In this document: piece after piece, positions 967 to 42,475 of the stretch
Position numbering within the stretch: position 1 is the stretch's first letter
Layout of the letters: each line of letters starts with the position of its first letter
Source of the DNA: Marmoricola sp. OAE513
GTDB lineage: Bacteria > Actinomycetota > Actinomycetes > Propionibacteriales > Nocardioidaceae
Length of the DNA: 64,000 nt
Assembly: GCF_040546585.1 (NCBI RefSeq)
Contig: NZ_JBEPOC010000001.1
Location: forward strand, 2,728,001 to 2,792,000
Direction of reading: 5' to 3'
Translations under genes and position numbers: made by a program
The notes under the pieces: model-generated
What the model saw: the letters and a program-made list of their open reading frames with translations, nothing else
What the model was told of the DNA's origin: nothing
Databases searched by the model: none

Positions 967-1598
967 GCCCGCTCGACCAGATGATGCTGTTCATCACCCC
1001 CGAGGACCTTGTCGGGTACCGGATGCCCGTGGAGGACGTGGCCAGGCTCATCTCTGAGGTTCCGCTCGAGCACGCGGTGAACTGGGCGTGCAGCATCGTC
1101 GGGGCGATCTACAACCCCGGGAGGGACCGTCGCGAGGTCGAGCTCGAGTACTTCGAGCGGTACTACTCCGAGGACCTGAAGGTCCAGGCCCGGAACCTGC
1201 TGCGTGAGCCCACCCGGGTCCTGCCCATCCCGCAGGCGCTGATGGTGTTCGTGAGGCTGGCGTTCGCCGTGTGCAAGCCGTGCAACGACCCAGCCATGGA
1301 GGCGGAACTCCGCCCGATGGTCCTCGCCATCATTCGGCGTTTCGGACTAAGTGCGATGGTGGCGTCGTCTAGGTCTTTGTCGGGCTTGGTGGACGTCAGC
1401 GCGGTGGATTCCGGCGGCGCTCCTCGTTCTTGGGCCGCTATTTTGAACGCTTTGAGCCCTGCGACTTTTTCGCCGCCCGTTTCGTGGCCGCTGTCTTTTT
1501 GCCGATTGGCGGTTTTTTGGGCGTCGACGCCGATGCGCCGACTAGGTGGCTTATTCGAAGGTTGTAGTTGTTGCCGTTGCCGTCCTTGCGCTTATTGA
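963..1598 (+). pseudogene. Hypothetical protein, apparently truncated at the island edge
   Basis: The reading frame starts at GTG 963, overlapping the stop of the small upstream frame. It reads as normal high-GC coding sequence for about 125 residues: MSPLDQMMLFITPEDLVGY, then HAVNWACSIVGAIYNPGRD, then FERYYSEDLKVQARNLL. At about base 1340 base composition drops, and the frame continues as Ser/Ala-rich sequence antisense to the GHKL ATPase gene until a stop at 1598. I read the first part as the remnant of a chromosomal gene cut by island insertion and the tail as chance read-through. An earlier ATG at 795 lies inside the terminator hairpin and is not a credible start. The family is unknown. 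Confidence 0.45.
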
Positions 1599-3102
1599 GT
1601 TCGGCGATTGCGGTGGCTGGCTTGTGGTCGGACGTCTTGCAGTACAGGATCCCTTCCTTCGGCTTGAGTCCATCCTTAACGAAGCCATCCCACTGACAGA
1701 CCAGTTGATACACGTCGTCCACGGTCCCACGAACTGCCTTCACCTCGAAGATTTGGGCAACAGTCGTCCTAGATGCAGTCTCGTAGACGACGATATCGGC
1801 AGTTGTCGCGCCGGCCCACGTGCCGACTTGCTGAGCTACGAGTGCAGGGTCTGCGACTTGAACCCTTAGATGTTCGGCAAGTTGGTCTTCAATCGATTTC
1901 TCGGTCTGCTTAGGAGACGTCTTTTCGGGGGTGTACGGGCCGTCCTTGTCACCGAGTACATCGACGAGTGCTTGCCAGGCGGGATCGTTCGGATCCATAC
2001 CCGCCTTGTTGTTGGTTGTGTGAAAGTTGTCGTCCAGGTTGATCTCAGCAAGCCACCGGTTGTAGTCGACCGTGTGGTCGATGTCCGGCCAAATTTCTTT
2101 CCAGGCTTGTGTTCGGATCACGCGTCTGCGAACGACGATGTCCGCTCCGGATCGACTGCTGGAACCTTGGTAGTAGATCTTCAGCGGATACGGATACGAG
2201 GGATCGCCGTGCCCGACCGTCTTGCGGTCAGGTTCCGGACCTTCGTCCCGGATTTGATAGTCGTTCTCGCCATAGGTATAGCCGACGTCAATTTTTCTTC
2301 CGCCCACATTCAGAGGGATGCGCGCAGTGACGTGGTTTCCGTACGGCGGCTTTATCGCCATCAGTGGTATGGGTTCGGACCAGCTGCCACCCAGGGCTCG
2401 CCACGAAAGATAGATCGTGTCTCCAGAATCAATGAACTCGCGGTACAGCACGCCGAGATGTTCTGCGAGTCGAGTTACGTAGGCGGGAAATTGCGATGCT
2501 GCTCCGCGACGCGTCCAGACTGTGCGGAAGTACGCAATGTCGGACTCAACCTGCACTTTCGTGCCCGTCGCGACTCCGGAGAGTATTTGAAGGCCAGGAG
2601 CCCAGTCGTTCTTCCGCGTTCCGGAATCGTCGGCGTCCATTGCGCTCGCAAACGGACCCGAGACGGTAAGGAACTGATCTGCGGTCAGTCCGTCGTCCTC
2701 CGATCGCGAGACCAAACTAACTCGAGTTGAGTCGCCGCCGGTCAGTACCGCGAGGGCATTCTTAAGTCCGAACCCGTGCTCGTTCATCGAACCGGCGGCG
2801 CTACTAGTTCGTCCTCGTTGTCCAAGTCCAAAAACGTGGTTCTGGAGGTCGGCGATCGTCATTCCGATGCCTGCGTCGGCGACTGAAATTTGGACCCTGG
2901 CGTCGGAGACCTGATCGACAACAATCTCGACTATGGCTGGATTTGGCTTCGACTTCGTTGCGCCGAGTTTGGTCATGGTCCGCGCTGAAAGCGCGTTGTC
3001 GACAAGTTCGCAGAGCGCTTGGTGAAAGTCCAAATCCTGTCGGGCTAGTCCACGGAAGTACTCGTCGAGATTGACCTTCGGTTCGATTTTGTGCTTCGCC
3101 AC
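1438..3102 (-). CDS. GHKL-type ATPase with C-terminal PD-(D/E)xK-like segment
   Basis: A 554-residue protein starting at GTG 3102, preceded by GGAGG. The N-terminus carries the Bergerat ATP-binding motifs: ELVDNAL (about residues 32-38), DAGIGMT (about 76) and GFGLKNAL (about 109). This places it with Hsp90/MutL/histidine kinase-like ATPases. Near residues 440-475 an Asp (TADIVVYE) followed by FEVKAV and a Gln-containing helix (YQLVCQWDGF) resembles a PD-(D/E)xK nuclease core. The extreme C-terminus is Lys-rich, like a nucleic-acid-binding tail. It lies at the left edge of the Dpd island, divergent from the HhH/sigma-like gene at 3303. ATPase family is clear; nuclease function is inference, as is any role in the Dpd system. 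Confidence 0.75.
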   Translation of the reverse strand: MAKHKIEPKVNLDEYFRGLARQDLDFHQALCELVDNALSARTMTKLGATKSKPNPAIVEIVVDQVSDARVQISVADAGIGMTIADLQNHVFGLGQRGRTSSAAGSMNEHGFGLKNALAVLTGGDSTRVSLVSRSEDDGLTADQFLTVSGPFASAMDADDSGTRKNDWAPGLQILSGVATGTKVQVESDIAYFRTVWTRRGAASQFPAYVTRLAEHLGVLYREFIDSGDTIYLSWRALGGSWSEPIPLMAIKPPYGNHVTARIPLNVGGRKIDVGYTYGENDYQIRDEGPEPDRKTVGHGDPSYPYPLKIYYQGSSSRSGADIVVRRRVIRTQAWKEIWPDIDHTVDYNRWLAEINLDDNFHTTNNKAGMDPNDPAWQALVDVLGDKDGPYTPEKTSPKQTEKSIEDQLAEHLRVQVADPALVAQQVGTWAGATTADIVVYETASRTTVAQIFEVKAVRGTVDDVYQLVCQWDGFVKDGLKPKEGILYCKTSDHKPATAIAELNKRKDGNGNNYNLRISHLVGASASTPKKPPIGKKTAATKRAAKKSQGSKRSK

Positions 3103-3302
3103 GTCTCAGCCTCCACCTCTGATACAGCCTGCGGCGACTCTAGGAGAGTCCATAGAACTTCGGGGTGGTTTCGGGACTAGAAAAGTTCGGGTGGACTAAG
3201 TGGAGCGGCCGAGCGGCCGATCTCGTTGGGACGCTCCTTCTTGCAGCGATCAATCGGTCGAACCCCACCCCTCGCGTGACCATCGTTGGTTAAGTAGCGC
3301 CC

Positions 3303-5474
3303 GTGAACCCTGAAGCGCGGCTGTCCGAGATGTTCCCGCGTCTTGCGTGTCTCGGTCACATCGAACTCAATGCGCCGGGGTTTGGGCCGTTGATGCGGTC
3401 CCGTGAGGAATCGCATCTATGGTCGTGGGTGCCGGGGATGTCGCGAGCGAACACGCTTGGAGAACTGCTGGACATACGGCTCCTGGCAGTGAGGTCATGG
3501 GCCGGGATCGGGCCCAAGCGACTCACCGAACTCATGGAGCTTCTGGAGTGGATGGACCACATCGTCGGCGACAGTTCGCTTGTCCCCGAAGCCGGTGAGG
3601 GAGCACTACGCGCGGAGGCGCTGACCTTTGCCGGCAGCGGGCGTTTCGGCTCGGACCAATGGTCAGGAGCCATCGCCACAGAGCGTGTCTCGACGGAAAC
3701 GGTCACGGACTCGAGCGGTTTCGGAGACCCATCCCAAACCCTGCGGGAGATGTTTCCTGGCCTCGAGAGTCTCAGTTGGGCAAGCTTCACGTATTGGCGG
3801 ATCACGCGCACGGCCGTAACCGACGCAGAGAAGCGAGCACTCGACCTAATTGCCACGCGCTCGAACTCGCGATCGATGGCCAAGGTCTTGACGTCAAGGG
3901 TCGACGACGTCTTGCAGTGGCCGGGAGTTGGCGACGATGAACTTCTACAGATCTTGAGCTTCCTTCAGAAGTTGCAAGGCGTAGTGGGAGCTACCCATAG
4001 GCAGGCTGCGAAAACACCACGACAAGCGACAGCGCGCACAGCGAACCATCGGTCGCTCGCGGGCGTCGTAGAACCGCCAGGTCCGCAGCCGCGGACCAAA
4101 GCTGCAGCTATCGACGATCCCATGACCGGGTTGCTGGGCGACGTCTTCCCGCAACTGTGGTTTCTTGCCGACGTGGATCTGCGGTCCCCCTGGTTGGACG
4201 AGTTCACAACGGACAAAGGGCGCAAGGAAGCGCTGCGCTACATCCGGAGGGGGCCGCGAGTCCCAACCATCGGCGATCTTTTGCGCTTGAACACGGACAC
4301 GATCGTGAGTTGGCCGGGTGTTGGCAAGATTCGACGAGGGCAGATCCTCGACTTCCTGGCGCATCTCGGCGGAGAGGCGTACGAGAGCCGACTGGTCGCC
4401 GTCCACGTGGTGTCAGCCTGGGTTGCGTCGACTCGAGGTCGGGCGACCTGGGCGAACCTGTTGGCGGCGACGGATGATCCGAAACCGCCAGAGGTCGAGC
4501 GCGCCTGGGGGATGCTTGCCGAGACTCCGATCACCGAGGTCCGAACCCGGACAGCGCCGAGTGTGATCGTCGACTATGTGACTGGTCTCGAGGAGCTCGA
4601 CCGAACGGTCTTGATGGAGCACTGCCTGGCGCAGGCGCCCAGATCGACACAGGACATTGCAGACCGGTTCGCAACGACCGTTGCAACTGTGCGACGTCGG
4701 ATCCAGTTCCTCGAGGCCGAAGTGCGGGCTCACGTTGCAGGGACGGACTCCTGGCTCCCGGTTGCCTGGGCAGTGGAGGCTCGGCAATCGGGGATCGTTC
4801 AGGCTGAGGATGCTTCACCGACCGGGGTCGGGCGTTCGGATGCGGAGGTTGCTCGCCTGTTCGTGGGTTGGCTTACGCGGACGGATCACAGTCGGGTCAT
4901 ACATGCAGAGATCGCTGCGGAGGTTGTGCCAAGCATCCCGGCCCTCGAAATTGCTGACGAAGTTCTTCCGAGCGGACCGGAGGAAGCAGTCGATAGTGAG
5001 ATCGACGTCCCAGCCGAGGCTGTCCAGGACGGCAGCGATGAAACAGTGTTCCCGAAGAACGATGGCCCGGAGCCCGGCGAGGTGTCGACCTTGTTTGGCG
5101 ACGCGTTCACTGCTGCTGGACAGTTCATCTCGCGACTCTCGCCGGTCATGGGCGCGATCTTGGAACGCAGAATCGTATACCCCGAGCGAAGTTCCTGGTC
5201 GGACATCGGAATCGACTACGCCCAGTCCGCGACGAAAATTCGGCAACTCGAGATCAGCCTCGTGGGTGATGTCCGCTACGCGTTCGAGTTTGCCAAGAAC
5301 TGGGCGCCGATACGCGCCTATTGCCTTGCTGTCGAGGCGGGGCGCGAGCCCTACCCTCCCCAAGGCCCAACGGACAGTCCTGACTCGACGGCAGTGACGA
5401 CGCAGTTCCTCCGGCAGCTCTGCGATCGTGTCGCGGACGGTGAACTCAACCCCGGAACCGAGGGACCGTTCTAG
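3303..5474 (+). CDS. Large DNA-binding protein with three helix-hairpin-helix repeats and sigma region 4-like helices
   Basis: A 723-residue protein starting at GTG 3303. Three copies of a similar unit occur near residues 50-85, 190-225 and 315-355. Their cores are RSWAGIGPKRLTELMELL, LQWPGVGDDELLQILSFL and VSWPGVGKIRRGQILDFL, the GxG hairpin pattern of helix-hairpin-helix or RNA polymerase alpha-CTD domains. Near residue 430-460, LDRTVLMEHCL then STQDIADRF then TVRRRIQFLE resembles sigma-70 region 4. A weaker second copy (SSWSDIGIDYAQSATKIRQ) lies near residue 640. Family unknown. The gene precedes dpdE by 124 bp, so it may be a regulator or a DNA-recognition component of the island. Confidence 0.7.
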   Translation: MNPEARLSEMFPRLACLGHIELNAPGFGPLMRSREESHLWSWVPGMSRANTLGELLDIRLLAVRSWAGIGPKRLTELMELLEWMDHIVGDSSLVPEAGEGALRAEALTFAGSGRFGSDQWSGAIATERVSTETVTDSSGFGDPSQTLREMFPGLESLSWASFTYWRITRTAVTDAEKRALDLIATRSNSRSMAKVLTSRVDDVLQWPGVGDDELLQILSFLQKLQGVVGATHRQAAKTPRQATARTANHRSLAGVVEPPGPQPRTKAAAIDDPMTGLLGDVFPQLWFLADVDLRSPWLDEFTTDKGRKEALRYIRRGPRVPTIGDLLRLNTDTIVSWPGVGKIRRGQILDFLAHLGGEAYESRLVAVHVVSAWVASTRGRATWANLLAATDDPKPPEVERAWGMLAETPITEVRTRTAPSVIVDYVTGLEELDRTVLMEHCLAQAPRSTQDIADRFATTVATVRRRIQFLEAEVRAHVAGTDSWLPVAWAVEARQSGIVQAEDASPTGVGRSDAEVARLFVGWLTRTDHSRVIHAEIAAEVVPSIPALEIADEVLPSGPEEAVDSEIDVPAEAVQDGSDETVFPKNDGPEPGEVSTLFGDAFTAAGQFISRLSPVMGAILERRIVYPERSSWSDIGIDYAQSATKIRQLEISLVGDVRYAFEFAKNWAPIRAYCLAVEAGREPYPPQGPTDSPDSTAVTTQFLRQLCDRVADGELNPGTEGPF

Positions 5475-5597
5475 TCCACTTCGTATCTGTGGTCAGTTTC
5501 GCGCCTCGTCGTTCTTGAAATTAGCCCATGTGTCGAGCCCCATCACTAAGGTCAAGAACACCCTCCGACCGACCCAGATAGGCCCGGGAATCCCCAC

Positions 5598-8500
5598 ATG
5601 ATCAAGCCGGAACTTCAGCCCGCATCGCACTTCGTGGGCCGATGGTTACGTTCCCGTGCCAACCCTGACCTTGGCTTCGGATACTGCAAGGAGAAGCGCG
5701 GAGATTCCTACGTGCTGTCCTATGTGGACATCCCCGAGGTTGCTGAGCACGAGGTCCTGGTCGAACCGTCCGACCTGATTGACCGGAGCATCCCCAATGG
5801 CACCAGGGTCTGGGTTCGGGGAGCTCCCTACGGCTGGCACGCAGGCGAGATCAAGATGCCTGCGTCGACTGGGCGCTACCACGTTGCGTTGGTAGGGGTC
5901 CCGCGTCAGATCCTGCTGTACCAGGACCAGTTCTATTTGCGCTGGTCCAAGCCGCTAGCCGACCCGTCAGCCGCGCTGCAGCACGGTCTGAGTGAAGCTC
6001 CCGTGTTCCACGAGGCGCGATCGGACCTCCTCGCGGCACTCGTGCGTCAGCGGCAGGTCTCCCGTGGACTATCCGGGGTGGTCTCGGCTCCAGTGAGCCT
6101 CTACCACCACCAGATTGACACCGTTGCCCGTGTTCTCGCCGACCCGGTCATTCGATACCTCCTTGCCGACGAGGTCGGGCTCGGTAAGACGATCGAGGCC
6201 GGTCTTGTCATCCGCCAGGTGATGATCGACGATCCTGACGCCGAGGTACTGGTCCTTGTGCCGGACAGTCTGGTTGGCCAATGGCGCAGCGAGCTCCACG
6301 GGCGCCTTGCGCTTGGGCCCGCGCTCGAGGATCAGCGCCTGGTCGTCATGTCACACGAGCAGCTTGGGCACCAATGGAATCTCGATCACGTGGCCCTGGT
6401 CGTCATCGATGAGGCCCACAACCTGCTCGACAGGATTCTCGACGGTTCGGCAACCCACCAGGCACTTCTCGACGCGCCTGCTCTCCTGGCTCTCTCCGCA
6501 ACTCCGATGCGGGGTGATTTGGGGGTCTTCCGGCGCCTTCTCGCACTGGTGGACCCAGTCGCATTCGGATCCATCACGGAAGAATCGTTCCTGCAGAGGC
6601 TCAATGAACGCGAGCGCAGTGCGGGAGAACTCCAGTTGCTGAACTCTCGCCGGGCCAGCGCGCGGCAGAAGCGCGGAGTCGTTGACTCGCTCCTCGAGAT
6701 GTTTGCCGGCGACCTCAATATTGTTGAGCTCGCAGCCGCCTGTGCTGACGTTGAGGACAACCTCGCTCCTGCCTGGACTGAACTTGCCGAGTACATCCGT
6801 GAGACCTATCGCCTGAGCAGGCGGATGATCCGCCATCGTCGCGAAGGAGACTTGACCGACGGATACGCAGTCGCCGGGCGCAAGCCGACCTACGTCGAAC
6901 TCCATGACGCTGCTCGCGCTGACGCCGATGAGTTCCTTGACCTGCTCCGGTTCGAGTTGGAAGCCGGCCGTCATGAAGACCTCTACGCTCAGGCGGTGCT
7001 GCACGCACTTGCGGGTCCGAGGGCGCTGTTGACCTTCTTGCGTGACCGAGCGGCCCTTCCGGCCCATTCGCCGAAGGCGCCGCCGGAGGCCGTGCGAGCG
7101 CTCTTTGAGTCGACCGCAGCGCATCTCGAGATTGCCGGCATTGATGCACGTATCGACGCAGCCATAGCGATCGCCCAGGAACGGGTCGGGCGAGGCTGCA
7201 AGGTGGTGGTGTCGTCAAGCTTTGCCGCAATCGCTCATGCGTTTGAGGAGCGGATACTCGAAGAGATCGATGAGTTCTCGGTGTTCCATCACTACTCCGA
7301 CATGCATGCGCACGTCCGTGACAACGCCGTCGCTGACTTCCTAAACGCTGCAAGTGGTGTGGTCCTGGTTGCGGATCGTTCAATGGAGGAGGGCCGTAAT
7401 CTTCAAGAGGCAGAGGTCCTGATCAATCTCGACCTGCCACTGGACGCGAGTCGCCTCGACCAACGCATCGGCCGCCTTGACCGCTACGCAGTGAGGCCTG
7501 AACCCGCTGAGGTTGTGGTTCTGGTCGAGCCGAACAGTCCTTGGGTTACCGCGCAGATCCGCCTGCTTGGCGAGGGCACCGGTGTGTTTGATAGTTCCGT
7601 GTCGACTGTCCAGCGGATGCTCACGGAGGTCCTCGACAAGGTCCGCGGCGAACTCCTTGCTCGTGGTGTTGGTGCTCTCGACCTCGACGTCTCCGCTTTG
7701 CGGGCGGAACTCAACACCGAGCGCGATGACATCGAACTGCTCGAGGAGATGGAGTCGGTCAGCGCAGCAGTTTCCTTCGGTCACGAGGCCTTCGCTGAAC
7801 TGCTCGAGTATGAGGGTGGCGATGATGACCCTCTGCGCCAGGCGGTCAAGCGTCTGACCCAGGGGACCGGCTCACTAGGTATGAAGCCAGTCGAGTCGAA
7901 GGACGGCGTGATTCGGTTTGGAGGGGCAAAGGAGATCGGCCTTCCCGAGGACCAGATTCCGGCTCTGCATTCCCTCTTGCTGGCGCCAAAGACCTATTCG
8001 CGTGAAGTGGCTGCCGAAAGGTACGCCGTTGCTCCTTTCCGAATCGGCGACCCGCTCGTCGACTGGCTGGACGACTACCTTCGCGCCGATGAACGCGGTC
8101 GCGCCTATGCGGTTGTTCGCCCGGTCGCTGGGCTTTCGACCCCTGCTCTGTGGGTGCACTGCGAGTTCCTGGTTGAGTTCGATGACGCGCACCTGGCGTG
8201 GGACGGAGCGGCAAGGCGCAGGTTGTCGCGTCGAGGTGATGGCCTGTTTCCGCCCGTTAAGTACGAAACCTGGACCGATCCGTACGGGGCGGCCCCCGAC
8301 GAGCTGATGCGCGAAAACCTTGACCTTCCTTTCGACAGTAAGCGCGACGAAGTTGTTCTGCGCGGTCCGATCTGGAAGCCCGTTCTCGAGGAGTTCCCAG
8401 CGTGGGTCGAGCTGATCAAGCAGAGTGCCGATCAGGCTCGCGCACTCGTGAGCGACTCGGCCGATCTTGCTGAACGGGTCGGCCGTGGTTTGCGCGCTGC

Positions 8501-8702: not shown

Positions 8703-8789
8703 TGTCGGAGGAGGCACGTGTCATCGCAGCGCTAGCGGAGGGCGGGGCCGTACCCAGTCGACTTTGACGACGATCTACACCGAAGATTG

Positions 8790-11228: not shown

Positions 11229-11231
11229 ACC

Positions 11232-15202: not shown

Positions 15203-15205
15203 CCG

Positions 15206-20789: not shown

Positions 20790-22981
20790 GTCTGGCTACT
20801 GCGGCGCAATCCCTGGTAGGCGACTACTCGGTATACGGCGACATGAGTGACCGGATCGAAGCGCTCGTCGCCAAGCAGGTCGACATCTATGTTCCGCGCC
20901 GGAGCAACTGGCTGGTGATGCCCTGGCAGCCGGCGGTTGGATCGATGGGATTCTATCTCTTCTCGGAGGACCGGGAAGGACAGCGCCGTGGCCGTGAGGT
21001 GCTCAACGGGTTCCTCGGTCCCGGTGTCGCCCGCCTGGTCTCGATGCCCGACGAGATGCTTGAGGGGCAACTGCCGCCAGCCTGGGTCGACCTAGGCCTG
21101 ACCAAAGCTACCTATATCCGGCGCTCCCAGCAGGTCGATCGCCTCGACATGTTGGCTCGCCTCGAAAACCTTGTCGCCACCGTGGCAGGGCGCCCAGCCA
21201 CCATCGAGGAGATCCATCCCACTCACGTTGATCTCCTTCGCGACGTACGCCTGGCAATGCTCAGCCAGGACGGAGTCGGCGCGCAGCGGCTCTTTGACCA
21301 ACTGGTACTGACCGGGCAGCTCAGCGCCGAGAACATCCGCTTCCTCACGATCGAACTGCTGGCCTGCTTCGGACGATGGCAGGAGATGGCGGACCTGCCG
21401 TACATCGCGGTTCTCATGCAAGCTCGTCGTCCTCGCGTAGTGACCGAGTCGATGCTCCAGATGGTTTGGGCAACCCAGGTCGCTGTCCACCTGGGACTCG
21501 CCTCTGTCGCAAGCGTCTTCGCGTCGCAGGACATCGTTGGCCGGTACACAGCCATCCTGCGGTCGATTGAGGTGCCGTCGACGCCTCAGGGTCGGATTCT
21601 CGCTTACCTCACCGCCCTTGCCGACGATGACGCGGAACGCCAGGAGGCGATTCTCCGCGCGGTCCTCGACCCCGACGAAGCCGGGGCGCTCGCAGCCTTG
21701 AGCGCGCCCGCAGGCTCCATTGTGCCGGAGTTCGAGCCCGATCCGGAGCCGGAGCCGGACCCGGAGCCCGAGCCCGAGCCGGAAGTCGCCCCGATTCGGC
21801 TCGCTTTCGACGAGGCCCGCTACAAGCGAGTCGTTGAGATCTTCCTCGCCGAGCCTCTTCCTGGTGACGCCGATTTCGCTGTTCAAGCAGTACTCGACCT
21901 GGGTGGACACGAGCGTGCAGGAGACGTACTCCAGGTCGTTCGCGACTGGGTTAGCAGCGGGGATGTAGAACCCGGAAGACGATTGGCGCTCGATATCAGC
22001 GCGCTGGATGATCTTGTCGCCGATGTCACTTCCGGTTGGGTCGCCTGGGCCCAGCGGATCGGCGCCGATGAAGTCTGGGGCGACGCTGCTACGACGTTGC
22101 GCAACCAGTACGCCGGGTGGCAGCCGCTCAGCGAACTGACCGCCGACCACGTGTCGTTGGTCGCTGACGGCGTACTGGGCGCGATCGGCACGGCGAACGA
22201 GCAACAGTTGCGAGCTGGTCTCGACATCCTTTGTCGAGTCGCGGCCGATGTCGTCGGGCATCCGTCGTGCGCTTTGTTCACTGAGACTGTGCTGGAGTTC
22301 CTGGCCGATCAGGAAAACATGAGTTCCCAGGTCCGGGAGGCCTACGGAACCTTGTTCGAGGCGATCTTGGGAGCCGGTCCAACCGTCGAGTCCTACACCG
22401 AGGTACTGACCAGGACGTCGGTCCTGTGGGACCGGATCAAGGCCCGGCAGCACGTCGATTGGGCTCTGGAAACTCTCGACACGTGTGCAGGCGCCAGCGC
22501 TCCAGACCCGCAGGTACGTAACGCCTTCGGTGCGCCAGTGATTCACTATCTGCGCTCTTTGGATCGCTTGAGCCGACTGCAACGGGTGGTGACCGAGTCT
22601 CTCGCCGAAGACTTCGGCCTCCCCGCCATTCCGCTCCCAGTGGTGCCGGCGGGCGACGAGAACGTGTCGTCGTGGTCGCGATTGGACGGGACTGTCGTCG
22701 GGCTCTATACGCTGCTTCCTCAAGCTCTGCAGCGATTCAGCACGCGCTTGAAAGCGCTGTGCAACCCGGGCGAGGTCGTCGGCAACGACGACAAGACCGC
22801 AACAGCCGCTCTGACGAACCTGGCCGAGCGAGCCGAACATCTGATCGTCGATACCTGGCACGCCGCCCACCAGGCGACAGGTGCGATTGATCAAGTTCGG
22901 CCGAAGTCACAGCAGATTTTGCCGCGACAGAAAGGCGTGACCGGATTCTTGCGCGCCCTGGAAAGCTCTCTCGAGGGCTAG
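20786..22981 (+). CDS. dpdD: Candidate DpdD, large Dpd-operon protein of unknown function
   Basis: A 731-residue protein starting at GTG 20786, overlapping dpdK (GTGA); it is the last gene of the forward operon. The N-terminal 150 residues include YVPRRSNWLVMPWQPAVG and GFYLFSEDREGQRRGREVL. A strongly acidic Pro-Glu/Pro-Asp linker (EPDPEPEPDPEPEPEPE, about residues 314-330) separates this half from a helical C-terminal half. No catalytic motif is evident. The DpdD assignment is by elimination: all other expected large Dpd proteins are accounted for. It ends 1 bp before the convergent dpdB gene stops. Confidence 0.55.
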   Translation: MSLATAAQSLVGDYSVYGDMSDRIEALVAKQVDIYVPRRSNWLVMPWQPAVGSMGFYLFSEDREGQRRGREVLNGFLGPGVARLVSMPDEMLEGQLPPAWVDLGLTKATYIRRSQQVDRLDMLARLENLVATVAGRPATIEEIHPTHVDLLRDVRLAMLSQDGVGAQRLFDQLVLTGQLSAENIRFLTIELLACFGRWQEMADLPYIAVLMQARRPRVVTESMLQMVWATQVAVHLGLASVASVFASQDIVGRYTAILRSIEVPSTPQGRILAYLTALADDDAERQEAILRAVLDPDEAGALAALSAPAGSIVPEFEPDPEPEPDPEPEPEPEVAPIRLAFDEARYKRVVEIFLAEPLPGDADFAVQAVLDLGGHERAGDVLQVVRDWVSSGDVEPGRRLALDISALDDLVADVTSGWVAWAQRIGADEVWGDAATTLRNQYAGWQPLSELTADHVSLVADGVLGAIGTANEQQLRAGLDILCRVAADVVGHPSCALFTETVLEFLADQENMSSQVREAYGTLFEAILGAGPTVESYTEVLTRTSVLWDRIKARQHVDWALETLDTCAGASAPDPQVRNAFGAPVIHYLRSLDRLSRLQRVVTESLAEDFGLPAIPLPVVPAGDENVSSWSRLDGTVVGLYTLLPQALQRFSTRLKALCNPGEVVGNDDKTATAALTNLAERAEHLIVDTWHAAHQATGAIDQVRPKSQQILPRQKGVTGFLRALESSLEG

Positions 22982-22982
22982 G

Positions 22983-24086
22983 TCAGCGAACGGCCCGCAT
23001 CAGATGCCCGGTGAGCACCCGAACATCGTTCGGTGTGTTCTGAATCCCGTTCCAACGTCTCTGCTGGTCGCCGCCGAAGTCCCAGGCGCCACCGGTCCAA
23101 GCACACGCGTCCTTCAGTTTTGACAACCGTGCCGGGATGTCGATCTCGGGGAGATCCGACGCTGGTATGCCCTCGGTGAGGTAGTCCATGACGTAACCGA
23201 GCGACTGGATGCCGGCGCCATGCGTCAGTCGCGACTTGGTCGGTGGCAGGGCCCAAGCATCGGGGAAGGTCAATTCAACGACGGTCCAGAAGAAGTTAAG
23301 GTGGAGCAAGATCTGGTCGACGTCGCCGGTGCCGTCCATCGGGTCGCGGTACTGGTAGAGCGCTCCGTCGTACAGGCTGTTCTCGATCATCTTCAGGACG
23401 CTGTTGTCCTTGATGTATCCGTCGGGTCGGGTCGGCGTCGCGATCCGACCAGCGAATGGCAACCCCGGTGCGGTTTCGCCGCCGTTGAGCAAGGCCAGCA
23501 CTTGGGCAGGGAGTTGCTTACGTGCGTACGCGGTCGGCAGGTGGCCGGCCGTCTCCGGCAGCAGTTCGTGGATCAGGCCCTTGGGCAACGGCTTAGTGTT
23601 GTTAACCAGGATGAACTGGGATCGCTGCTCGGCCTCGCCGTGGGCAATGAACCCGACAGCTGCGACCGGAAACTCCGCGAGGTCTGCATCGCGAATGGCG
23701 GCACTTCGCTGCTGGCCGTCGACCAACCAAGCCGGCTTCTGATCGTCGGACAGCGACTCATCGACCGGGATCACCAGTTCGCCAAGGGTGGAGTAGTCAG
23801 GCCCAAGGTTGACACCGGCAGGTTCAAAACTCACCCGCTCGTCAAACGCAAGAACCACCGCATTGGGGAGCATGGCTCCATCCGACTCGAGATACCGGCG
23901 GATCGCTTTGATGTGGCTCAGCACCTCGGGGCGCTGATATCCCTGCAACGTGGCGTCGTCGCGGTGCACACGCGAGACGGTTGCGAAGTCGTGGATGTGC
24001 TTGCCGTCGACGCCGAAGCAATAGATGAACTGCGACCCCTGACGGATCTGGATCGCCGGCAGCCTGATGTCGTATCGGTCAGCCAT
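22983..24086 (-). CDS. dpdB: DpdB-like DGQHR-type protein, copy 1
   Basis: A 367-residue protein starting at ATG 24086, overlapping the DpdA stop by 8 bp. It carries the ParB/DGQHR-like signature WLVDGQQRSAAI (about residue 140), preceded by QGYQRPEVLSHIKAIRRYL and LPNAVVLAF. DpdB works with DpdA to insert preQ0 into DNA, and ATP hydrolysis by DpdB has been reported for the family. It resembles the second copy at 25323-26453 in the same order of motifs (GYQRPE, LPN or FPN, VDGQQRS, LLPE, C-terminal QNTP). It is the last gene of the reverse operon. Confidence 0.8.
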   Translation of the reverse strand: MADRYDIRLPAIQIRQGSQFIYCFGVDGKHIHDFATVSRVHRDDATLQGYQRPEVLSHIKAIRRYLESDGAMLPNAVVLAFDERVSFEPAGVNLGPDYSTLGELVIPVDESLSDDQKPAWLVDGQQRSAAIRDADLAEFPVAAVGFIAHGEAEQRSQFILVNNTKPLPKGLIHELLPETAGHLPTAYARKQLPAQVLALLNGGETAPGLPFAGRIATPTRPDGYIKDNSVLKMIENSLYDGALYQYRDPMDGTGDVDQILLHLNFFWTVVELTFPDAWALPPTKSRLTHGAGIQSLGYVMDYLTEGIPASDLPEIDIPARLSKLKDACAWTGGAWDFGGDQQRRWNGIQNTPNDVRVLTGHLMRAVR

Positions 24087-25326
24087 CGGTACTCCTCGAC
24101 ATCACTTTGGGCTTTCTCGGTTGCAAGGTCTCCATCTTCCGCGACAGGACCGACAGGTTGTGGAACCCGCGCCGCTTGTTCCGCTCGGTGCCTCGGAAGA
24201 TCGCGATCTCGATCCCGAGTTCTCGGCAGAGACTGCAGGGGCAGGTGGTCCAGGGCGCGGCGTCGAGAGTACGGGCGTAGGCCTCGAGGTAACTCTTCTT
24301 TGTCTGGCAGATCTGTTCGTAGGCGCCAAGGGCGGCCAGTGCGTTCGTGGTCGCCTTGGCGCTGCCGTCGAACGCGCGCACCGCCGCCAGGCACTCGCGC
24401 TCGTGCTTCACTGCCTCGGCCTGGGACACGCGCCCGGCCAGAATCGCGCGCTTCAGCGTGGGATTCCCGTCGACCTGAGGGATACGGAGGGCGACGTACT
24501 CACCGTCCATTGAGTGGAAGTTTTTGCGGTCATCCATGAATGACTGCCGGAAAGCCGACGTGCTGTCGAAGCTGGTTACCCCCAGGTCAGCGAATGTCTC
24601 CATCGACTCGAACCGAGTGATTCCGAGCAGATGCAGGTCCGTGGTCGGTTCGAGAATCTCTTGGATCGCGTCCAGCGACTCGAGGATCTCCTTCGTTTTG
24701 AGCGGGACCATGCCGCCGAGAGCGATCCGCTGATAGCCCATCTTCTGGAGTTGAGCGACGCTGTCGGCGTACGACGCCGGACCCCAACCTTGGGCTGCGC
24801 CGACTGGGACTACCGGCGACTTCTCGTCGTTGACCATTTCGATGAATTCCGCGGCAAGGCGCAGCGTGATCAGTCGGCGCTCAGCCCACGCAGGATCAAC
24901 AGACTCAAAAGAGGCCGCAGAGTCGTATCCAAAGATGATGTGGTCGACGCTGACCCCAGCGTCGAAGCCACACCCTTCATAGAAGTCGAGAGTCTCCCGC
25001 ACGCTGACAGGGGGCACGAGTTCGTCGGCGTAGTTGAAGGCACCGTTATCACCGAGTGACTCGACACCGTCCGGCAGTCGGAAGAATCGGTCGACGCCGA
25101 GGCGGTACAGCCTGGCTCGTTGGGACGCGGTGTATTTGCCAGACCCCATGATAGAGCCGTCGACGATCGACTTGCTGACCAAGATGCCGTGGTAGGGCGG
25201 AGTCTCGAGCACTTCGTGCGCGTAACGATCGTCGCGCTGGCGAACTCGTAGTGGCGAGTACTCGTCGCGAGCGAAATCGTAGGTTGGGCTGACCAGGTCT
25301 TGGCTATCCGGGAAGTAGAACTTCAT
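24079..25326 (-). CDS. dpdA: DpdA, DNA guanine transglycosylase (TGT-like) inserting preQ0
   Basis: A 415-residue protein. The start at ATG 25326 is chosen because it overlaps the upstream stop (ATGA) and gives a sensible N-terminus (MKFYFPDSQDLVSP). It is a tRNA-guanine transglycosylase relative that swaps guanine for 7-cyano-7-deazaguanine in DNA. TGT hallmarks are visible: GDNGAFNYADE (about residue 92), SVDHIIFGYD (about 126), GYQRIALGGMV (about 197), LGVTSFDS with the probable nucleophile Asp (about 254), and the zinc site CPCSLC with a distal His (about residues 362-389). Two DpdB-like genes flank it in the same operon. Confidence 0.9.
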   Translation of the reverse strand: MKFYFPDSQDLVSPTYDFARDEYSPLRVRQRDDRYAHEVLETPPYHGILVSKSIVDGSIMGSGKYTASQRARLYRLGVDRFFRLPDGVESLGDNGAFNYADELVPPVSVRETLDFYEGCGFDAGVSVDHIIFGYDSAASFESVDPAWAERRLITLRLAAEFIEMVNDEKSPVVPVGAAQGWGPASYADSVAQLQKMGYQRIALGGMVPLKTKEILESLDAIQEILEPTTDLHLLGITRFESMETFADLGVTSFDSTSAFRQSFMDDRKNFHSMDGEYVALRIPQVDGNPTLKRAILAGRVSQAEAVKHERECLAAVRAFDGSAKATTNALAALGAYEQICQTKKSYLEAYARTLDAAPWTTCPCSLCRELGIEIAIFRGTERNKRRGFHNLSVLSRKMETLQPRKPKVMSRSTDG

Positions 25327-26453
25327 CGGCGCCCGGTCCGTTCCGCCAAGTACGCGCGAACCAAGAAGTTCGAAAGCGCACTGATGTGCCGCGGTGTGTT
25401 CTGCAGGTCGTTCCAGACCATGCCAAGGTCCTCCCATGTGCCGGCGGTCCACCGGCACTGGTCGGCGATCAGTGCCAACTCTGCCCGTGCCTGCTCGGCG
25501 GCATCCGACGCGGCAGGATCAACATGAGCCATGACTCGATCCATCAATCGCCCCATTGCTCGGATGCCGACTCCACCCATCAGTCGGGAGTCAGTCGGCG
25601 GTTTGCCCCAAGCACGCGGGAAGGTCTCCCGAACGGCCCCCCAATACGCCATGAGCAGTCGACGGATGCCTTCCGTATCAGTGGTTCCGGTAGCGATGTT
25701 GCGGTAGGGGAAGAGCACTCCAGATGGTGACTCGATCGACTCACGCAAAGCCTCAACCAGGCCTGTGTCCGTGACCACCGCTACCTTCTTGTCGGCCGCG
25801 GTAGACGCGCGCCGGATGATTCCGAAGAACGGCGAGTCCGGATCTTGGTTCAGCATGTCGACCAATGCCGAAGGCAGTTGCCTTGTCGCCATTCGAGCGG
25901 ACGGCACTCGAGCGATCTCCGGAAGAAGTTCGGTGACTAGGCCGACAGGCAGCGGTTGCACGGTGTTCACACGGAGGAACTGTTCGCGCTGCACGTCCAG
26001 GTCGCCGGCAACGAAACCCGCCACGGGCACAGGCATTCGACTGTTCTTGGTGCGTGAGAGCGCGACGCTACGTTGCTGACCATCGACGATCCACGCTGGC
26101 CGAGGACCGTCGCCGTCCGGTGAAACCGGTATCTCCAAGGTGCCCGATACCGCTAGGCCGTCGCTCGTGTTTGGGCCACGACTCGACTTCCACCTCACCT
26201 CGGGTGGCAGAGCAAGGATCAGTCCGTTCGGAAAGAGAACGTCACCCGAATCGAGGTAGTCTTGGATCTGTTTGACATGTTTCTTCTTTTCAGGACGCTG
26301 GTACCCGATGAGCTTGCCCGCCTCGTCGCGGCCGATACGCGAGACGTCGGCCACGAGATCGATCTCGTCCGCGGCGAGTGTGAACAGGTACAGCGGGACG
26401 TCGTCGTTCTGCAGCACTTTCAGCGCTCTGCGTTCCAACCATTTCTCAGTCAT
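25323..26453 (-). CDS. dpdB: DpdB-like DGQHR-type protein, copy 2
   Basis: A 376-residue protein with the signature WIVDGQQRSVALS (about residue 123), GYQRPEKKKHVKQIQDYL near residue 50, LLPEIARVP near 183 and a C-terminal NDLQNTPRHISALS. It has the same architecture as the protein at 22983-24086 but is clearly diverged, so it is an old paralogue rather than a recent duplication. It overlaps dpdA downstream and the YaaA-like gene upstream by 4 bp each. The pair may form a heteromeric ATPase partner of DpdA. Confidence 0.8.
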   Translation of the reverse strand: MTEKWLERRALKVLQNDDVPLYLFTLAADEIDLVADVSRIGRDEAGKLIGYQRPEKKKHVKQIQDYLDSGDVLFPNGLILALPPEVRWKSSRGPNTSDGLAVSGTLEIPVSPDGDGPRPAWIVDGQQRSVALSRTKNSRMPVPVAGFVAGDLDVQREQFLRVNTVQPLPVGLVTELLPEIARVPSARMATRQLPSALVDMLNQDPDSPFFGIIRRASTAADKKVAVVTDTGLVEALRESIESPSGVLFPYRNIATGTTDTEGIRRLLMAYWGAVRETFPRAWGKPPTDSRLMGGVGIRAMGRLMDRVMAHVDPAASDAAEQARAELALIADQCRWTAGTWEDLGMVWNDLQNTPRHISALSNFLVRAYLAERTGRR

Positions 26454-27319
26454 CGAGTGACTCCTGCATTGTTGAAGAGTGCCCCGAACCGTCGTTGCTC
26501 GCAGGCGTGCCCGGCGTCGCGCAACTGACGCAGGGCACGGGTCTTGGTAAGCCGATTATCAGCCCGTCGCAGCGCCCGTATGAAGTCCAGGATCGCGGTG
26601 TCGCTCAACGGAACTCGGTCGTAGACATCCGCTTGCTCGGCGCCGGCGCTCCACTCCTCCCATCGTTCGCGTGTCTGCGTCGACGTCAGCCCGGATTTGG
26701 CGGCGAGGCCCAGCCATTGGATAGCCATCCTCACGTTCAGACTGGTCGCGGTGCCCCCGAGGGTTCGTCGCAGTGCCCTGTTCGAGGGAACCCTGATATC
26801 AGTTGGGATCTCGTCAGTTCCCCCGAAGACCAAGGGCGCCACCGTTGTGCGCTCGAGAAGGTCGCGAGCGATCACGTCCGCGTAGCTCTTCGAGAGCACC
26901 CAAAGCATCGGCCCGTCCAGTCGGGGAAAGTCGCCGGCGTTGACCAACTGCCACCAATCTTGAGACTGATCAATATTTAGTCCGACGACGTCTGGACTTC
27001 CCGAAGAGAACGTGGCGCTGTACGACGGAGCTGTGTCTTGCGCAGTGCGTAGGCCGAGGCCGGCCGAGGCTACGAGGAGCTGGGGTGCGTAACCGTTCGC
27101 GCGAGCAGTCTCTTCGAGGCGGAGGACCTGAGTCCAACTCTCGCCTTGATACAGGGACCGGAGTGCGCGCCGGGCGCCTGCTCGCCTGATCTGGTCGCTC
27201 CAGGCCTGCGCACGTTGCTCCATCGACCCAGGGGCAAGGTTTCGGACTTGGAGTGCGTGGTCGACCGGCAACGACTTGCGATCGGTGCACGTGACGACGA
27301 TCGTCAGTTTCTGAGTCAC
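26450..27319 (-). CDS. YaaA-like protein, candidate DpdC
   Basis: A 289-residue protein starting at ATG 27319. The N-terminal VVTCTDRKSLP followed by a Gln/Arg-rich helix and ASAGLGLRTAQD recalls the YaaA/DUF6884 nucleotide-related fold. It is first in the reverse operon, coupled by ATGA to the dpdB-like gene that precedes dpdA. In studied systems DpdC converts the inserted preQ0 base to the amide form (dADG). By position and elimination this gene is the best candidate, but I cannot confirm the family from sequence alone. Without it the DNA base would be expected to remain dPreQ0. Confidence 0.5.
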   Translation of the reverse strand: MTQKLTIVVTCTDRKSLPVDHALQVRNLAPGSMEQRAQAWSDQIRRAGARRALRSLYQGESWTQVLRLEETARANGYAPQLLVASAGLGLRTAQDTAPSYSATFSSGSPDVVGLNIDQSQDWWQLVNAGDFPRLDGPMLWVLSKSYADVIARDLLERTTVAPLVFGGTDEIPTDIRVPSNRALRRTLGGTATSLNVRMAIQWLGLAAKSGLTSTQTRERWEEWSAGAEQADVYDRVPLSDTAILDFIRALRRADNRLTKTRALRQLRDAGHACEQRRFGALFNNAGVTR

Positions 27320-27431
27320 TCATCTGCCTCTGGATTTGATAACTGTCGGTGTGTCGAAGTTACTCTATGCAGTAGTTAGTCGTAGCGTCGTGAACACACA
27401 GAGTGTTGGTTGAGGAAGTTTGGTGGTTGGC
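27320..27431. promoter_or_regulatory. Divergent control region between modification and preQ0-synthesis operons
   Basis: This 112-bp region is AT-rich compared with its neighbours and must hold the promoters for both the reverse operon (27319) and queC (27432). On the forward strand TGTCGGTG (27344-27351) and TACTCT (27361-27366) resemble the damage-type promoter found elsewhere in the window, but the spacer is one base longer. No preQ1-type riboswitch was recognised. Confidence 0.4.
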
Positions 27432-28118
27432 ATGAAGGCAGTAGTTCTTCTCAGCGGGGGACTCGACTCGACGACGGTGCTGGCGCACGCGAAGAGCTTG
27501 GGGTTCGAGCCCTACGCGCTGAGCTTCCGCTACGGACAGCGCCATGTCGTTGAACTTGAGGCTGCGCAGAGGGTCGCCGACGCGCAGGGGGTTGCCGGCC
27601 ATATCGTGGCCGACATCGACTTGCGGGCGTTTGGGGGTTCGGCATTGACGGCTGACATCGACGTTCCCAAGCACGAGAGCGCTGCGGACGTTGAGGAGAA
27701 CATCCCTGTTACCTATGTCCCCGCGCGTAACACGGTGTTCCTTTCCTTTGCACTCGCGTATGCAGAGGTTGTTGGAGCGACGGACATCTTCATCGGAGTC
27801 AACGCTCTCGATTACTCCGGCTATCCGGACTGCCGTCCGGAGTACATCGAGGCATACGAAAACATGGCGAACCTGGCGACTCGAGCCGGGGTCGAAGGCG
27901 CCCGCCTGAAGATCCACACGCCGCTCATCGACAAGTCGAAGGCCCAGATCGTCGAAATGGGCCTTGCGCTCGGCGTCGACTACGGCCTCACTTCGTCGTG
28001 CTACGACCCGGATGATGCCGGTCGGTCGTGCGGGCACTGCGATTCGTGCCTGCTTCGCCTCAAGGGCTTTGCAGAGGCGGGGGCCACTGACCCGATCGAG
28101 TACCAAGAGTCGGCATGA
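27432..28118 (+). CDS. queC: 7-cyano-7-deazaguanine (preQ0) synthase QueC
   Basis: A 228-residue enzyme converting 7-carboxy-7-deazaguanine plus ammonia and ATP to preQ0. ATG 27432 is chosen because it places the PP-loop at the usual position ([17 protein letters not shown], residues 4-20). The C-terminal zinc site is [36 protein letters not shown] and ITPL-like [13 protein letters not shown] are also typical. It is the first gene of queC-queE-queD-folE2 and overlaps queE by 4 bp. It supplies the base that DpdA puts into DNA. Confidence 0.95.
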
Positions 28119-28750
28119 CCTACAAGGTCAAGGAGATCTTCTACACGCTGCAAGGAGAAGGCGCCCATGCTGGGCGGCCTGCCGTGTTCTGTCGATTCAG
28201 TCTCTGCAACCTGTGGACGGGGCGCGAAAAGGATCGCGCCCGGGCGATCTGCCAGTTCTGCGACACCGATTTCGTGGGAACCGATGGCGAGGGCGGGGGT
28301 CGGTTCGAGACGGCAGACGACTTGGCGGCAGCGGTCGAGGCGGCTTGGCCCACGGGGTGGACGGAAGACCGGATGGTCGTGTGCACCGGCGGCGAGCCAT
28401 TGCTCCAACTGGACGACGCTGCGGTGACTGCTCTCCAGTCGCGTGGGTTCTACGTCGCCGTCGAGACCAACGGGACCCAGGTTCCTCCTGCCGGCATCGA
28501 CTGGCTCTGCGTGAGCCCGAAGATCGGCGCTGATCTCGTCGTCACCGGGGGGCACGAACTGAAGTTTGTGTACCCGCAAAGGGGCGCCGACCCGACGCAG
28601 TTCGAGGGCCTCGACTTCGAGCACTATCGCGTGCAGCCGATGGACGGACCCGACATCAACGAGAACGTTGCGGCGGCAGTGAAGTTCTGCCTCGACCACC
28701 CCAATTGGAACCTCAGCATGCAAACTCACAAGTACCTAGGAATTCCGTGA
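28115..28750 (+). CDS. queE: 7-carboxy-7-deazaguanine synthase QueE (radical SAM)
   Basis: A 211-residue radical SAM enzyme converting 6-carboxytetrahydropterin to 7-carboxy-7-deazaguanine. Start ATG 28115 overlaps the queC stop. The N-terminus [18 protein letters not shown] is diagnostic. The iron-sulfur ligands follow the extended pattern C-x14-C-x2-C (FSLCNLW to CQFCDTDF), known in one QueE subgroup, in place of CxxxCxx[13 protein letters not shown] is the SAM-binding GGEP motif. The stop overlaps the queD start (GTGA). Confidence 0.95.
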
Positions 28751-29115
28751 CCCATACCGCCGAGATCTACCGCGAGTTCACCTTCGAGTCGGCACACCGT
28801 CTTCCGAACGTGCCCGAGGGCCACAAGTGCGCCCGCCTGCACGGCCACTCCTATCGTGTAGAGGTGCACGTCCGTGGCCCGGTCGGCGACGACACTGGTT
28901 GGGTCGTGGACTTCGGTGACCTGAAGGCCGCATTCAAGCCGCTCGAGGACGAGTTGGACCATCACTACCTCAATGACATCGAGGGCCTGGAGAACCCGAC
29001 CAGCGAAGTGCTGGCCAAATGGATCTGGGATCGGTTGGCGCTGTCCCTGCCACGGCTCAACGCTGTCCAGGTCCGTGAGACCTGCACCTCGGGGTGCATC
29101 TACCGAGGGGACTGA
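28747..29115 (+). CDS. queD: 6-carboxytetrahydropterin synthase QueD
   Basis: A 122-residue T-fold enzyme that turns 7,8-dihydroneopterin triphosphate into 6-carboxytetrahydropterin. The start is GTG 28747, overlapping the queE stop. FESAHRLP and [14 protein letters not shown] supply the zinc histidines and the catalytic Cys. [23 protein letters not shown] and the C-terminal [11 protein letters not shown] are family hallmarks. An ATG at 28705 lies inside queE out of family register and is not used. Confidence 0.93.
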
Positions 29116-29117
29116 CG

Positions 29118-29918
29118 ATGACGCTTCCCGACATCCAGAACCAGGTTGATCAGCGCGGCGTTGCGCTCGACGAGGTCGGCATTGACGGCGTTCGTTGCCC
29201 GACGATCTTCGACGACGGGTCCTTGGTGCAGGCCGGGATTGGCGACTTCGCAATCACCGTGTCACTGCCGTCGGAGCGACGTGGGACGCACATGAGTCGG
29301 ATGGTTGAGATCGTTGAGGATCTACTTCGCACAGTCGATCCGCGGCAACTGCCGACAGTGCTGAAGCAGGCGTCGAGCAAACTCGAAGTCGACGCGATGC
29401 GATTGGGGGTCGCCTTGCCCGTGGCGGTACGCGTCGAGTCGCCCGCATCTGGCCAGTCCGCCTGGCAGACCAGCGACGTTCAGATCACGGGAGTCAAGAA
29501 CGGCGACGCTGTCTCTGTCGGTACCAAGGTGACCGCTCAGGTGACCAGCTTGTGTCCTTGCAGCAAGGCGATTAGCGATTACGGCGCTCACAACCAACGC
29601 TCGGATGTCACTGTCGAGACCTTCGGGTTTGCGGACGATCCATATCCAATTCGTGTCGGACAGTTGATCGAGCTTGCGCGTTCCGTGGGATCGTGCCCCG
29701 TCTACCCTCTGGTCAAGCGCCCCGACGAACGATTCATCACCATGGCGGCATTCGACAACCCTGCATTCGTTGAGGACATGGCGCGAGACCTAAGTGTCGA
29801 TCTACGCAGTCGGACCGTTTCCCACCGGGTTTCGATCAGGAATCTGGAGAGCATTCATAGTCACGACGCCGTTGCGTCGGTCTCGTGGACTCCAGATGCG
29901 GTCGCAAGCCGCATGTGA
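29118..29918 (+). CDS. folE2: GTP cyclohydrolase IB FolE2
   Basis: A 266-residue type IB GTP cyclohydrolase making 7,8-dihydroneopterin triphosphate, the first step to preQ0. ATG 29118 lies 2 bp after queD. DIQNQVDQRGVALDEVGIDG at the N-terminus, GTHMSRMVEI, and the metal-binding Cys region SLCPCSKAISDYGAHNQRS are characteristic. Carrying this gene makes the island's preQ0 supply independent of the host folate enzyme FolE. No QueF or tRNA-type Tgt is linked, which fits a DNA-modification role rather than queuosine synthesis. Confidence 0.93.
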   Translation: MTLPDIQNQVDQRGVALDEVGIDGVRCPTIFDDGSLVQAGIGDFAITVSLPSERRGTHMSRMVEIVEDLLRTVDPRQLPTVLKQASSKLEVDAMRLGVALPVAVRVESPASGQSAWQTSDVQITGVKNGDAVSVGTKVTAQVTSLCPCSKAISDYGAHNQRSDVTVETFGFADDPYPIRVGQLIELARSVGSCPVYPLVKRPDERFITMAAFDNPAFVEDMARDLSVDLRSRTVSHRVSIRNLESIHSHDAVASVSWTPDAVASRM

Positions 29919-29952
29919 GCGGCCGCGGGCGCTTGTGAGTCAGTAACCCCGA

Positions 29953-30687: not shown

Positions 30688-30733
30688 GCGACGTGCAACT
30701 TCGGTGGAAGATCCATTGCTTGGAACGAGCGGC

Positions 30734-33525: not shown

Positions 33526-33647
33526 GGGCGGGAACCTAGCGGGACCCTCCGGCACGTACCGACATGAGTCGGGAGAGGTCTAGCGCATTGCTAACCGGTG
33601 TTCGAATGAGACTGGATCTGCCAAGGGCGTTCCCTAGGCTCGCTGGC

Positions 33648-38264: not shown

Positions 38265-38311
38265 ACGCAAGACCCGCACGACAACCGACAACGGAATGGA
38301 GAGGTGAGTAC

Positions 38312-42460: not shown

Positions 42461-42475
42461 GTCGAAGGAGATCGG

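Follow-up and report, generated by a model that had tools for sequence, protein, structure and literature searches.

A Dpd 7-deazaguanine DNA modification island in Marmoricola sp. OAE513 as a probable mosaic of synthesis and restriction cassettes

Gene content of the Dpd island

A 64,000-nucleotide stretch of the closed 3.89-Mb genome of Marmoricola sp. OAE513, an actinobacterium in the family of Nocardioides (genome positions 2728001 to 2792000; hereafter the window), carries a full gene set for Dpd, a DNA modification and restriction system based on 7-deazaguanine. Profile searches place this set at 5598-29918. The genes dpdE, dpdF, dpdG, dpdH, dpdI, dpdJ, dpdK, and dpdD follow one another on the plus strand, and behind them lie dpdB2, dpdA, dpdB1, and dpdC on the minus strand and queC, queE, queD, and folE2 on the plus strand (Table 1). 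We refer to 5598-22981 as the restriction cassette and to 22983-29918 as the synthesis cassette. The original prediction, made from the sequence of the window, was that an actinobacterium carries a self-contained Dpd island. This is borne out, in that all Dpd genes were matched, the genes for synthesis of 7-cyano-7-deazaguanine (preQ0) adjoin them (27420-29918, by Pfam and NCBIfam matches), and genome-wide searches matched DpdA as the only transglycosylase. The predicted extent of 1438-29918 stands for 5598-29918 but not for 1438-5474, where genes for a GHKL ATPase and a 723-residue orphan show no Dpd link.

The protein encoded at 24079-25326 does not group with tRNA-guanine transglycosylases (TGT). 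DpdA reaches 582.8 bits with its NCBIfam model (NF041059, cut-off 200), compared with 19.2 bits for the TGT superfamily model TIGR00449 (cut-off 47.6) and 21.7 bits for PF01702 (cut-off 26.3), which keeps it outside the tRNA-guanine transglycosylases of the queuosine and archaeosine pathways. The solved DNA-guanine transglycosylase 7ui4, which we take to be the Salmonella enzyme, aligns with residues 1-399 of DpdA (E 5e-115); this match is the likeness to the Dpd system of Salmonella Montevideo. Both proteins share GD(N/C)GAF, (F/I)DST, and CxCxxC plus His. In the window's DpdA these are GDNGAF at 92-97, SFDSTS at 252-257, CxCxxC at 362, and the His of GFHN at 387, presumably the catalytic and zinc residues, in line with the TGT-like protein with a zinc site that had been predicted. 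The genome holds no TGT match other than DpdA (genome-wide search; control, 14 of 14 genomes), and QueF was not found by the same kind of search (control, 8 of 14 genomes). Since 24 of 30 Dpd genomes also lack a strong tRNA TGT match (E < 1e-100; present in six), the host is not peculiar in this respect. Besides a DpdA distinct from tRNA TGT, the island has DpdB, DpdC (by PADLOC, with no match in NCBIfam), a source of preQ0, and DpdD, DpdE, DpdF, DpdJ, and DpdK at their curated cut-offs.

In the restriction module, predicted to be recognizable in full from DpdE to DpdK, the proteins DpdE, DpdF, DpdJ, and DpdK (and DpdD) pass their cut-offs, and DpdG, DpdH, and DpdI match below them. Helicase, Walker, and phospholipase D (PLD)-type motifs are present in DpdE, DpdF, DpdH, DpdJ, and DpdK, including a Walker A-like motif at residue 84 of DpdH, and DpdK is the sole protein of the module with a recognized nuclease-type domain. 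DpdG is 43% to 47% identical to DpdG of the Dpd genomes G402, G415, and G647. AlphaFold2 predicts DpdI as all-helical (mean predicted local distance difference test score, pLDDT, 81.6) and DpdD as a long helical part flanked by two alpha/beta parts (pLDDT 85.2, predicted template modelling score 0.48). Foldseek returned no match at E <= 0.001 for either model. A second structural search with DpdD matched mainly helical-repeat proteins, with a best Z of 8.7 and a root-mean-square deviation of 16.9 over 212 residues, values common for such models; these matches cover mainly residues 145-649, so that the end domains are barely tested.

As an example of its kind the island is ordinary. A survey of Dpd systems (PMC11888242) gives 2,335 unique windows in eight phyla, with fully intact operons as the commonest composition (>50%). 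It counts 333 unique windows in Actinomycetota and reports experimental validation in DNA of Kineococcus radiotolerans, so the actinobacterial setting, thought worth special study, is not special. Neither is the gene order, and its uniqueness to this island was rejected: the annotated Enterobacter plasmid pPOL9A has the same E-F-G-H-I-J-K-D order, convergent on a synthesis operon of a hypothetical gene (in the position of DpdC), dpdA, and dpdB. Differences from the Salmonella and pPOL9A systems are the two DpdB proteins, the preQ0 genes inside the island, the lack of a tRNA TGT or QueF match in the genome, and the scores of DpdG, DpdH, and DpdI below curated cut-offs. BRIGADE and BREX-related capture systems have a TGT-like protein or a 7-deazaguanine cluster in common with the window, and BRIGADE, like the window, as a rule has a PLD nuclease. 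However, BRIGADE is reported only in halophilic archaea, usually with two YprA helicases compared with one full-length DpdJ match in the window, and the BREX-related capture system is described without DpdB and DpdC, whereas the window holds all Dpd genes (PMC12458937, PMC12839542).

Two DpdB-like proteins had been predicted, and both score above the cut-off for DpdB, the DGQHR protein of the system. A second DpdB as an unusual feature was rejected: dpdA has a dpdB on either side in 34 of 36 islands (28 of 30 in the first set, which includes the window, and all six of the second), two dpdB genes likewise flank dpdA on an annotated Sinorhizobium plasmid, and dpdB is the gene with the most additional copies (801) in the published survey (PMC11888242). 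A quick tree places 28 DpdB1 proteins on one side of a branch with support 88, joined (100) by the first DpdB of the Sinorhizobium plasmid. Apart from them lie the DpdB2 proteins, which do not form one clade (4 changes), and the single DpdB of Enterobacter, Solirubrobacter, and an acidimicrobial genome. Several rows of this tree are long, and long branches meet at the first Sinorhizobium DpdB, so the deep part of the tree is unsure. Lysine 29 of DpdB2, within DGK, is conserved in 30 of 30 rows of DpdB2 or single DpdB, as well as in Enterobacter, and in 0 of 28 DpdB1 rows; neither Sinorhizobium DpdB has it, which argues against a simple rule. These patterns suggest DpdB2 as the standard form, with DpdB1 an ancient paralog whose role has changed. 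Two further stretches were seen in other islands: a third DpdB-like one (27% to DpdB2) beyond folE2, itself matched as a fragment, in Nocardioides sp. SYSU D00065 (locus L040, 3805-4920), and a second, divergent QueC-like one (33%) behind dpdB2 in a planctomycete island (locus L057, 12415-13053).

Table 1 Features of the Dpd island and its edges in window coordinates. Scores are in bits.
Feature	Position	Strand	Assignment	Evidence
GHKL ATPase gene	1438..3102	-	In low-GC3 stretch; judged a passenger	HATPase_c_3 41.9
723-aa orphan	3303..5474	+	Weak helix-hairpin-helix-like and helix-turn-helix-like stretches; judged a passenger	No family over cut-off
dpdE	5598..8702	+	SNF2-type helicase; first gene of restriction module	NCBIfam DpdE 755.9 (cut-off 500); PADLOC PDLC02841 891.6
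dpdF	8787..11228	+	RecQ-like DEAD helicase	NCBIfam DpdF 591.1 (cut-off 550); PADLOC 645.4
dpdG	11232..12134	+	Divergent	NCBIfam DpdG 66.8 (below cut-off 80); position
dpdH	12131..15202	+	AAA ATPase	PADLOC DpdH 828.5; NCBIfam 356 (below cut-off 450)
dpdI	15206..15889	+	Divergent	NCBIfam DpdI 31.3 (below cut-off 150)
dpdJ	15883..20262	+	YprA-type helicase; start approximate	NCBIfam DpdJ 1176.6 (cut-off 800)
dpdK	20259..20789	+	Phospholipase-D-type protein	NCBIfam DpdK 193 (cut-off 100); PLDc_2; HxK motif at residue 123
dpdD	20786..22981	+		NCBIfam DpdD 382 (cut-off 300)
dpdB2	22983..24086	-	DGQQR protein, in place of the single DpdB of other islands	NCBIfam DpdB 499.2 (cut-off 300); tree
dpdA	24079..25326	-	DNA guanine transglycosylase	NCBIfam DpdA; 7ui4 match; motifs
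dpdB1	25323..26453	-	Second DpdB paralog; DGQQR kept	NCBIfam DpdB 396.7 (cut-off 300); tree; column counts
dpdC	26450..27319	-	Predicted dPreQ0 to dADG	PADLOC DpdC 324.2
queC	27420..28118	+	preQ0 synthase	PF06508 255
queE	28115..28750	+	Radical SAM	PF04055 28.9 (just below cut-off 29.5)
queD	28705..29115	+		PF01242 138
folE2	29094..29918	+	GTP cyclohydrolase	PF02649 230.3; NCBIfam FolE2 224.8 (cut-off 215)
244-aa orphan	29953..30687	-	Last gene with island-like GC3; no Dpd link shown	GC3 0.65 vs 0.88 and 0.93 for the next two genes

Restriction modules and synthesis cassettes across Dpd islands

When the window's proteins were compared with other Dpd islands by tblastn, the restriction genes fell into two levels of identity. 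Islands of the window's own type, labelled W from the identity table before any tree was built (G402, G415, G408, G411, and G249), have ~41% to 74% identity for DpdE, DpdF, DpdH, DpdJ, and DpdK and 27% to 45% for DpdD, DpdG, and DpdI; G417 is a deeper member of type W with 31% to 53% for the restriction genes. Restriction proteins of the other type, M, are ~23% to 43% identical to the window's, and DpdD, DpdG, and DpdI are often unmatched. The synthesis genes show no such two-level split across the islands. Nocardioides sp. SYSU D00065 (G402) and Mycobacterium asiaticum (G415) have the same C-B1-A-B2 cassette and the same convergent type-W module as the window, and the restriction proteins of G402 are 44% to 74% identical to the window's, except DpdI (33%); the window's GHKL ATPase and 723-aa gene were not found in these two. 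Its QueC, QueE, DpdB1, and DpdA are nearer, however, to those of the Terrabacter islands (Ter38, Root181, and aerolatus), where the restriction module is of the other type. Compared with Ter38, the window has 86% identity for QueC, 88% for QueE, 88% for DpdB1, and 73% for DpdA, and 27% to 38% for the restriction proteins.

Phylogenetic trees of the two parts differ accordingly. In the DpdJ tree (29 rows), the seven type-W islands form one clade (100/100). On the DpdA tree (30 rows), type W needs seven changes for its seven rows, a count that holds across the 5-95% range of the bootstrap trees as well, and type W as one clade is rejected by the approximately unbiased test (p 7e-44). The further trees, per gene and with an extended sample, were quick ones with a simple model. 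Type W requires one change for each of DpdE, DpdF, DpdH, and DpdK, seven for each of DpdB2, DpdC, QueC, and QueE, and six for the six W rows with DpdB1. A second sample brought six new islands among 11 from the family (four were already included and one is the window), one of them type W. With eight W rows, DpdA, DpdB2, and QueC each need eight changes, and DpdB1 seven for seven, compared with one for DpdJ, DpdE, and DpdH. The type-W module is convergent with the cassette in six of eight islands (the window, G402, G415, G411, G417, and G647) and co-directional in G408. The island thus appears to be a two-part mosaic, with restriction genes that form one clade and synthesis cassettes scattered over the synthesis tree.

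Two pairs of sister islands point to replacement in place. Between Terrabacter Ter38 and Root181, protein identity is 99% for QueC and QueE, 97% for DpdB1 and DpdA, 96% for DpdB2, and 92% for DpdC, compared with 28% for DpdD, 34% for DpdH, 35% for DpdF, 38% for DpdK, and 41% for DpdJ. The two have 93.5% DNA identity along the 7.0 kb that run from folE2 through the stop codon of dpdB2; past it, the stretch compared holds one shared block of 132 bases (75%). The chromosomal flanks are alike on both sides, with 84% to 92% DNA identity in the longer blocks. In the second pair, G402 (type W) and G640 (type M), the synthesis proteins are 87% to 98% identical overall (QueC 98%, DpdB1 98%, DpdA 94%) and the restriction proteins 31% to 39%, again with flanking blocks of 84% to 92% DNA identity on both sides; the restriction proteins of G640 are 88% to 98% identical to those of G398. 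The differing block, from the end of dpdB2 to the resumed flank, is ~18 to 20 kb long in each of the four islands. These comparisons suggest that the restriction module has repeatedly been replaced as one unit, in place, beside a little-changed synthesis cassette. We found no published report of such replacement, a weak negative in that the main Dpd papers lie outside the literature covered.

Predicted working and alternative explanations

The marking chemistry proposed here follows work on the Salmonella system, which is outlined in PMC12839542. FolE2, QueD, QueE, and QueC would convert GTP to preQ0, DpdA, aided by DpdB, would exchange guanine in DNA for preQ0, and DpdC would convert the preQ0 base in DNA to the amide dADG. 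Because no tRNA transglycosylase or QueF was found in the genome, preQ0 would have no visible use in tRNA. The helicases DpdE, DpdF, and DpdJ, the ATPase DpdH, and the PLD-type DpdK, with DpdD, DpdG, and DpdI, would find unmarked DNA and destroy it; the restriction step and recognition of the missing mark are the inferred part of this scheme. A product for a secondary metabolite or tRNA instead of a DNA mark is highly improbable. The genes queC, queE, queD, and folE do also serve queuosine and secondary metabolites, according to PMC11888242, but here they stand beside a DpdA with its own profile and a 7ui4 match, DpdB, DpdC, and a whole restriction module, in a genome with no match to tRNA TGT or QueF.

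We consider it very probable that this is a restriction-modification system of two exchangeable cassettes in which the restriction cassette has been swapped repeatedly, a reading in which gene content, the absence of tRNA-Q matches, and cassette exchange are all drawn from sequence. Several observations weigh against it. The flank comparison covers two sister pairs, neither with the window as a member, and in type-W G249 DpdA and DpdJ are on different contigs, so that their adjacency is not shown. Nor is the folE2 side clean in these pairs, and on the restriction side the flanks of G402 and G640 have one common 1.8-kb block in the 20 kb compared. DpdG (66.8 against 80), DpdH (356 against 450), and DpdI (31 against 150) fall below their NCBIfam cut-offs. 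Despite these scores they match the correct models in the expected order, and the cut-offs do not define Dpd membership, because published islands vary in their content of restriction genes, dpdD to dpdK (PMC11888242). Exchangeability of the modules is itself deduced from their history.

A different history, in which what moves between islands is the synthesis cassette rather than the restriction module, would fit a shared DNA block that runs essentially from folE2 to dpdB2, and it would fit the other end of that block, where 2.5 to 6 kb beside folE2 are also unshared in both pairs: ~6 kb of Ter38 have one 0.6-kb block (78%) in common with Root181, and 2.5 to 3.4 kb are not common to G402 and G640. 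In both pairs, however, the flanks on both sides go with the cassette, at one same site, which makes this history unlikely, even if such movement may have occurred elsewhere in the tree. Differential loss from an ancestral island with both restriction types, with no exchange at all, would likewise yield one restriction clade on scattered synthesis cassettes. Yet two DpdJ above the cut-off were found in one of the 30 Dpd genomes (G412), both of type M, no island has both types in the stretches examined, and sister cassettes up to 92% to 99% identical in protein (Ter38 and Root181) leave little time for a double ancestor; we regard this explanation as very unlikely.

Since modules with about one-third of their residues in common adjoin closely similar cassettes, the restriction modules most likely read the mark or the lack of it, rather than partner-specific contacts with DpdA or DpdB. 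Differing modules would then work with the same mark, and module replacement may help in escape from phage counter-defence. More tentatively, with the balance slightly against it, Dpd restriction modules could be general 7-deazaguanine readers that are traded apart from the marking machinery, and in parallel the DpdB1-DpdB2 pair could mark DNA in actinobacterial and some other systems, with DpdB1 in a new role such as site choice. Sister strains with a very similar marking cassette and very different restriction modules at the same site amount to a natural experiment: should one sister spare DNA that was marked in the other, the mark by itself would be the signal. With its closed genome and no tRNA TGT or QueF match, the strain studied here also offers a clean host, in which 7-deazaguanine would be expected in DNA and not in tRNA.

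Island edges and neighbouring genes

G+C content at third codon positions (GC3) is 0.65 to 0.79 across 1438-30687 and mostly 0.80 to 0.94 in the rest of the window, apart from a few short frames at 0.64 to 0.75. The low-GC3 stretch starts at ~1438, perhaps at 795, and ends at 30687. Above its cut-off, DpdA was matched in 11 of 294 family genomes and three of 394 class genomes, the window's own counted in each, and no DpdA match was found in the 20 other same-genus genomes listed. Given this foreign composition and patchy presence, the island was probably acquired.

To the left of the island lies a gene that we take, from a TSCPD domain, to be nrdJ, for a B12-dependent ribonucleotide reductase. 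Its end (3-657) is split between two frames near 240-260, by a frameshift or a sequencing error; most same-genus nrdJ matches sit in an open frame of ~1000 residues. The distance from nrdJ to a PHP gene is 34 kb here, compared with 4.6 kb in G430 and 10 kb in G434. Among eight same-genus stretches behind nrdJ, the PHP gene was in reach in these two; none matched an island gene, and an exact empty site was not found. The site behind nrdJ is therefore a variable one, and only base composition marks where the island ends on the right. Between 601-1500 and 29901-31200, no direct or inverted repeats of at least 14 bases were found, and one inverted 13-base match is taken as chance. The window has no tRNA or Rfam elements.

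The two left-hand genes, counted by the original prediction among its reasons for special interest, were not found in the 29 other Dpd genomes, and both were rejected as new Dpd parts. The GHKL ATPase occurs in one of 30 Dpd genomes and one of 394 class genomes, itself each time, and the 723-aa gene in one of 30 (itself) and two of 394 (itself and a weak match of 85 residues). Distant relatives of the ATPase (24% to 26% identity) are on four of 72,556 plasmid records. Of three inspected, one has a Sau3AI-family endonuclease gene nearby, one carries a DNA methyltransferase annotation and lies beside another such endonuclease gene, and one has no such neighbour. The C-terminal residues ~430-490 of the window's ATPase, with an ExK motif at residue 453, resemble by eye a PD-(D/E)xK nuclease core, a likeness confirmed by no search. 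The 723-aa gene had no match in the same plasmid records and none in PDB up to E 1. An open frame at 795-1598 may be a gene truncated at the island's left edge; its residues 51-159 are 33% identical to a portion of a 708-aa frame in G045. At the right edge, profile searches matched no family to the 244-aa orphan.

Beyond the island, 31075-33555 encodes an SMC-like ATPase of host-like GC3, weakly matched by mad3 and LmuB models, adjoining a 114-aa gene. Farther on, 35507-47595 looks like a defence cluster based on NAD or ADP-ribose: it contains genes for a SIR2-domain protein near ThsA models, an NrtR-like regulator, two ADP-ribosylglycohydrolases (one with a phosphatase domain), a REase-ARP nuclease, and a NERD-helicase. 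This second cluster is largely missing in G430, where a homologue of 49281-50348 lies within 2 kb after the PHP gene.

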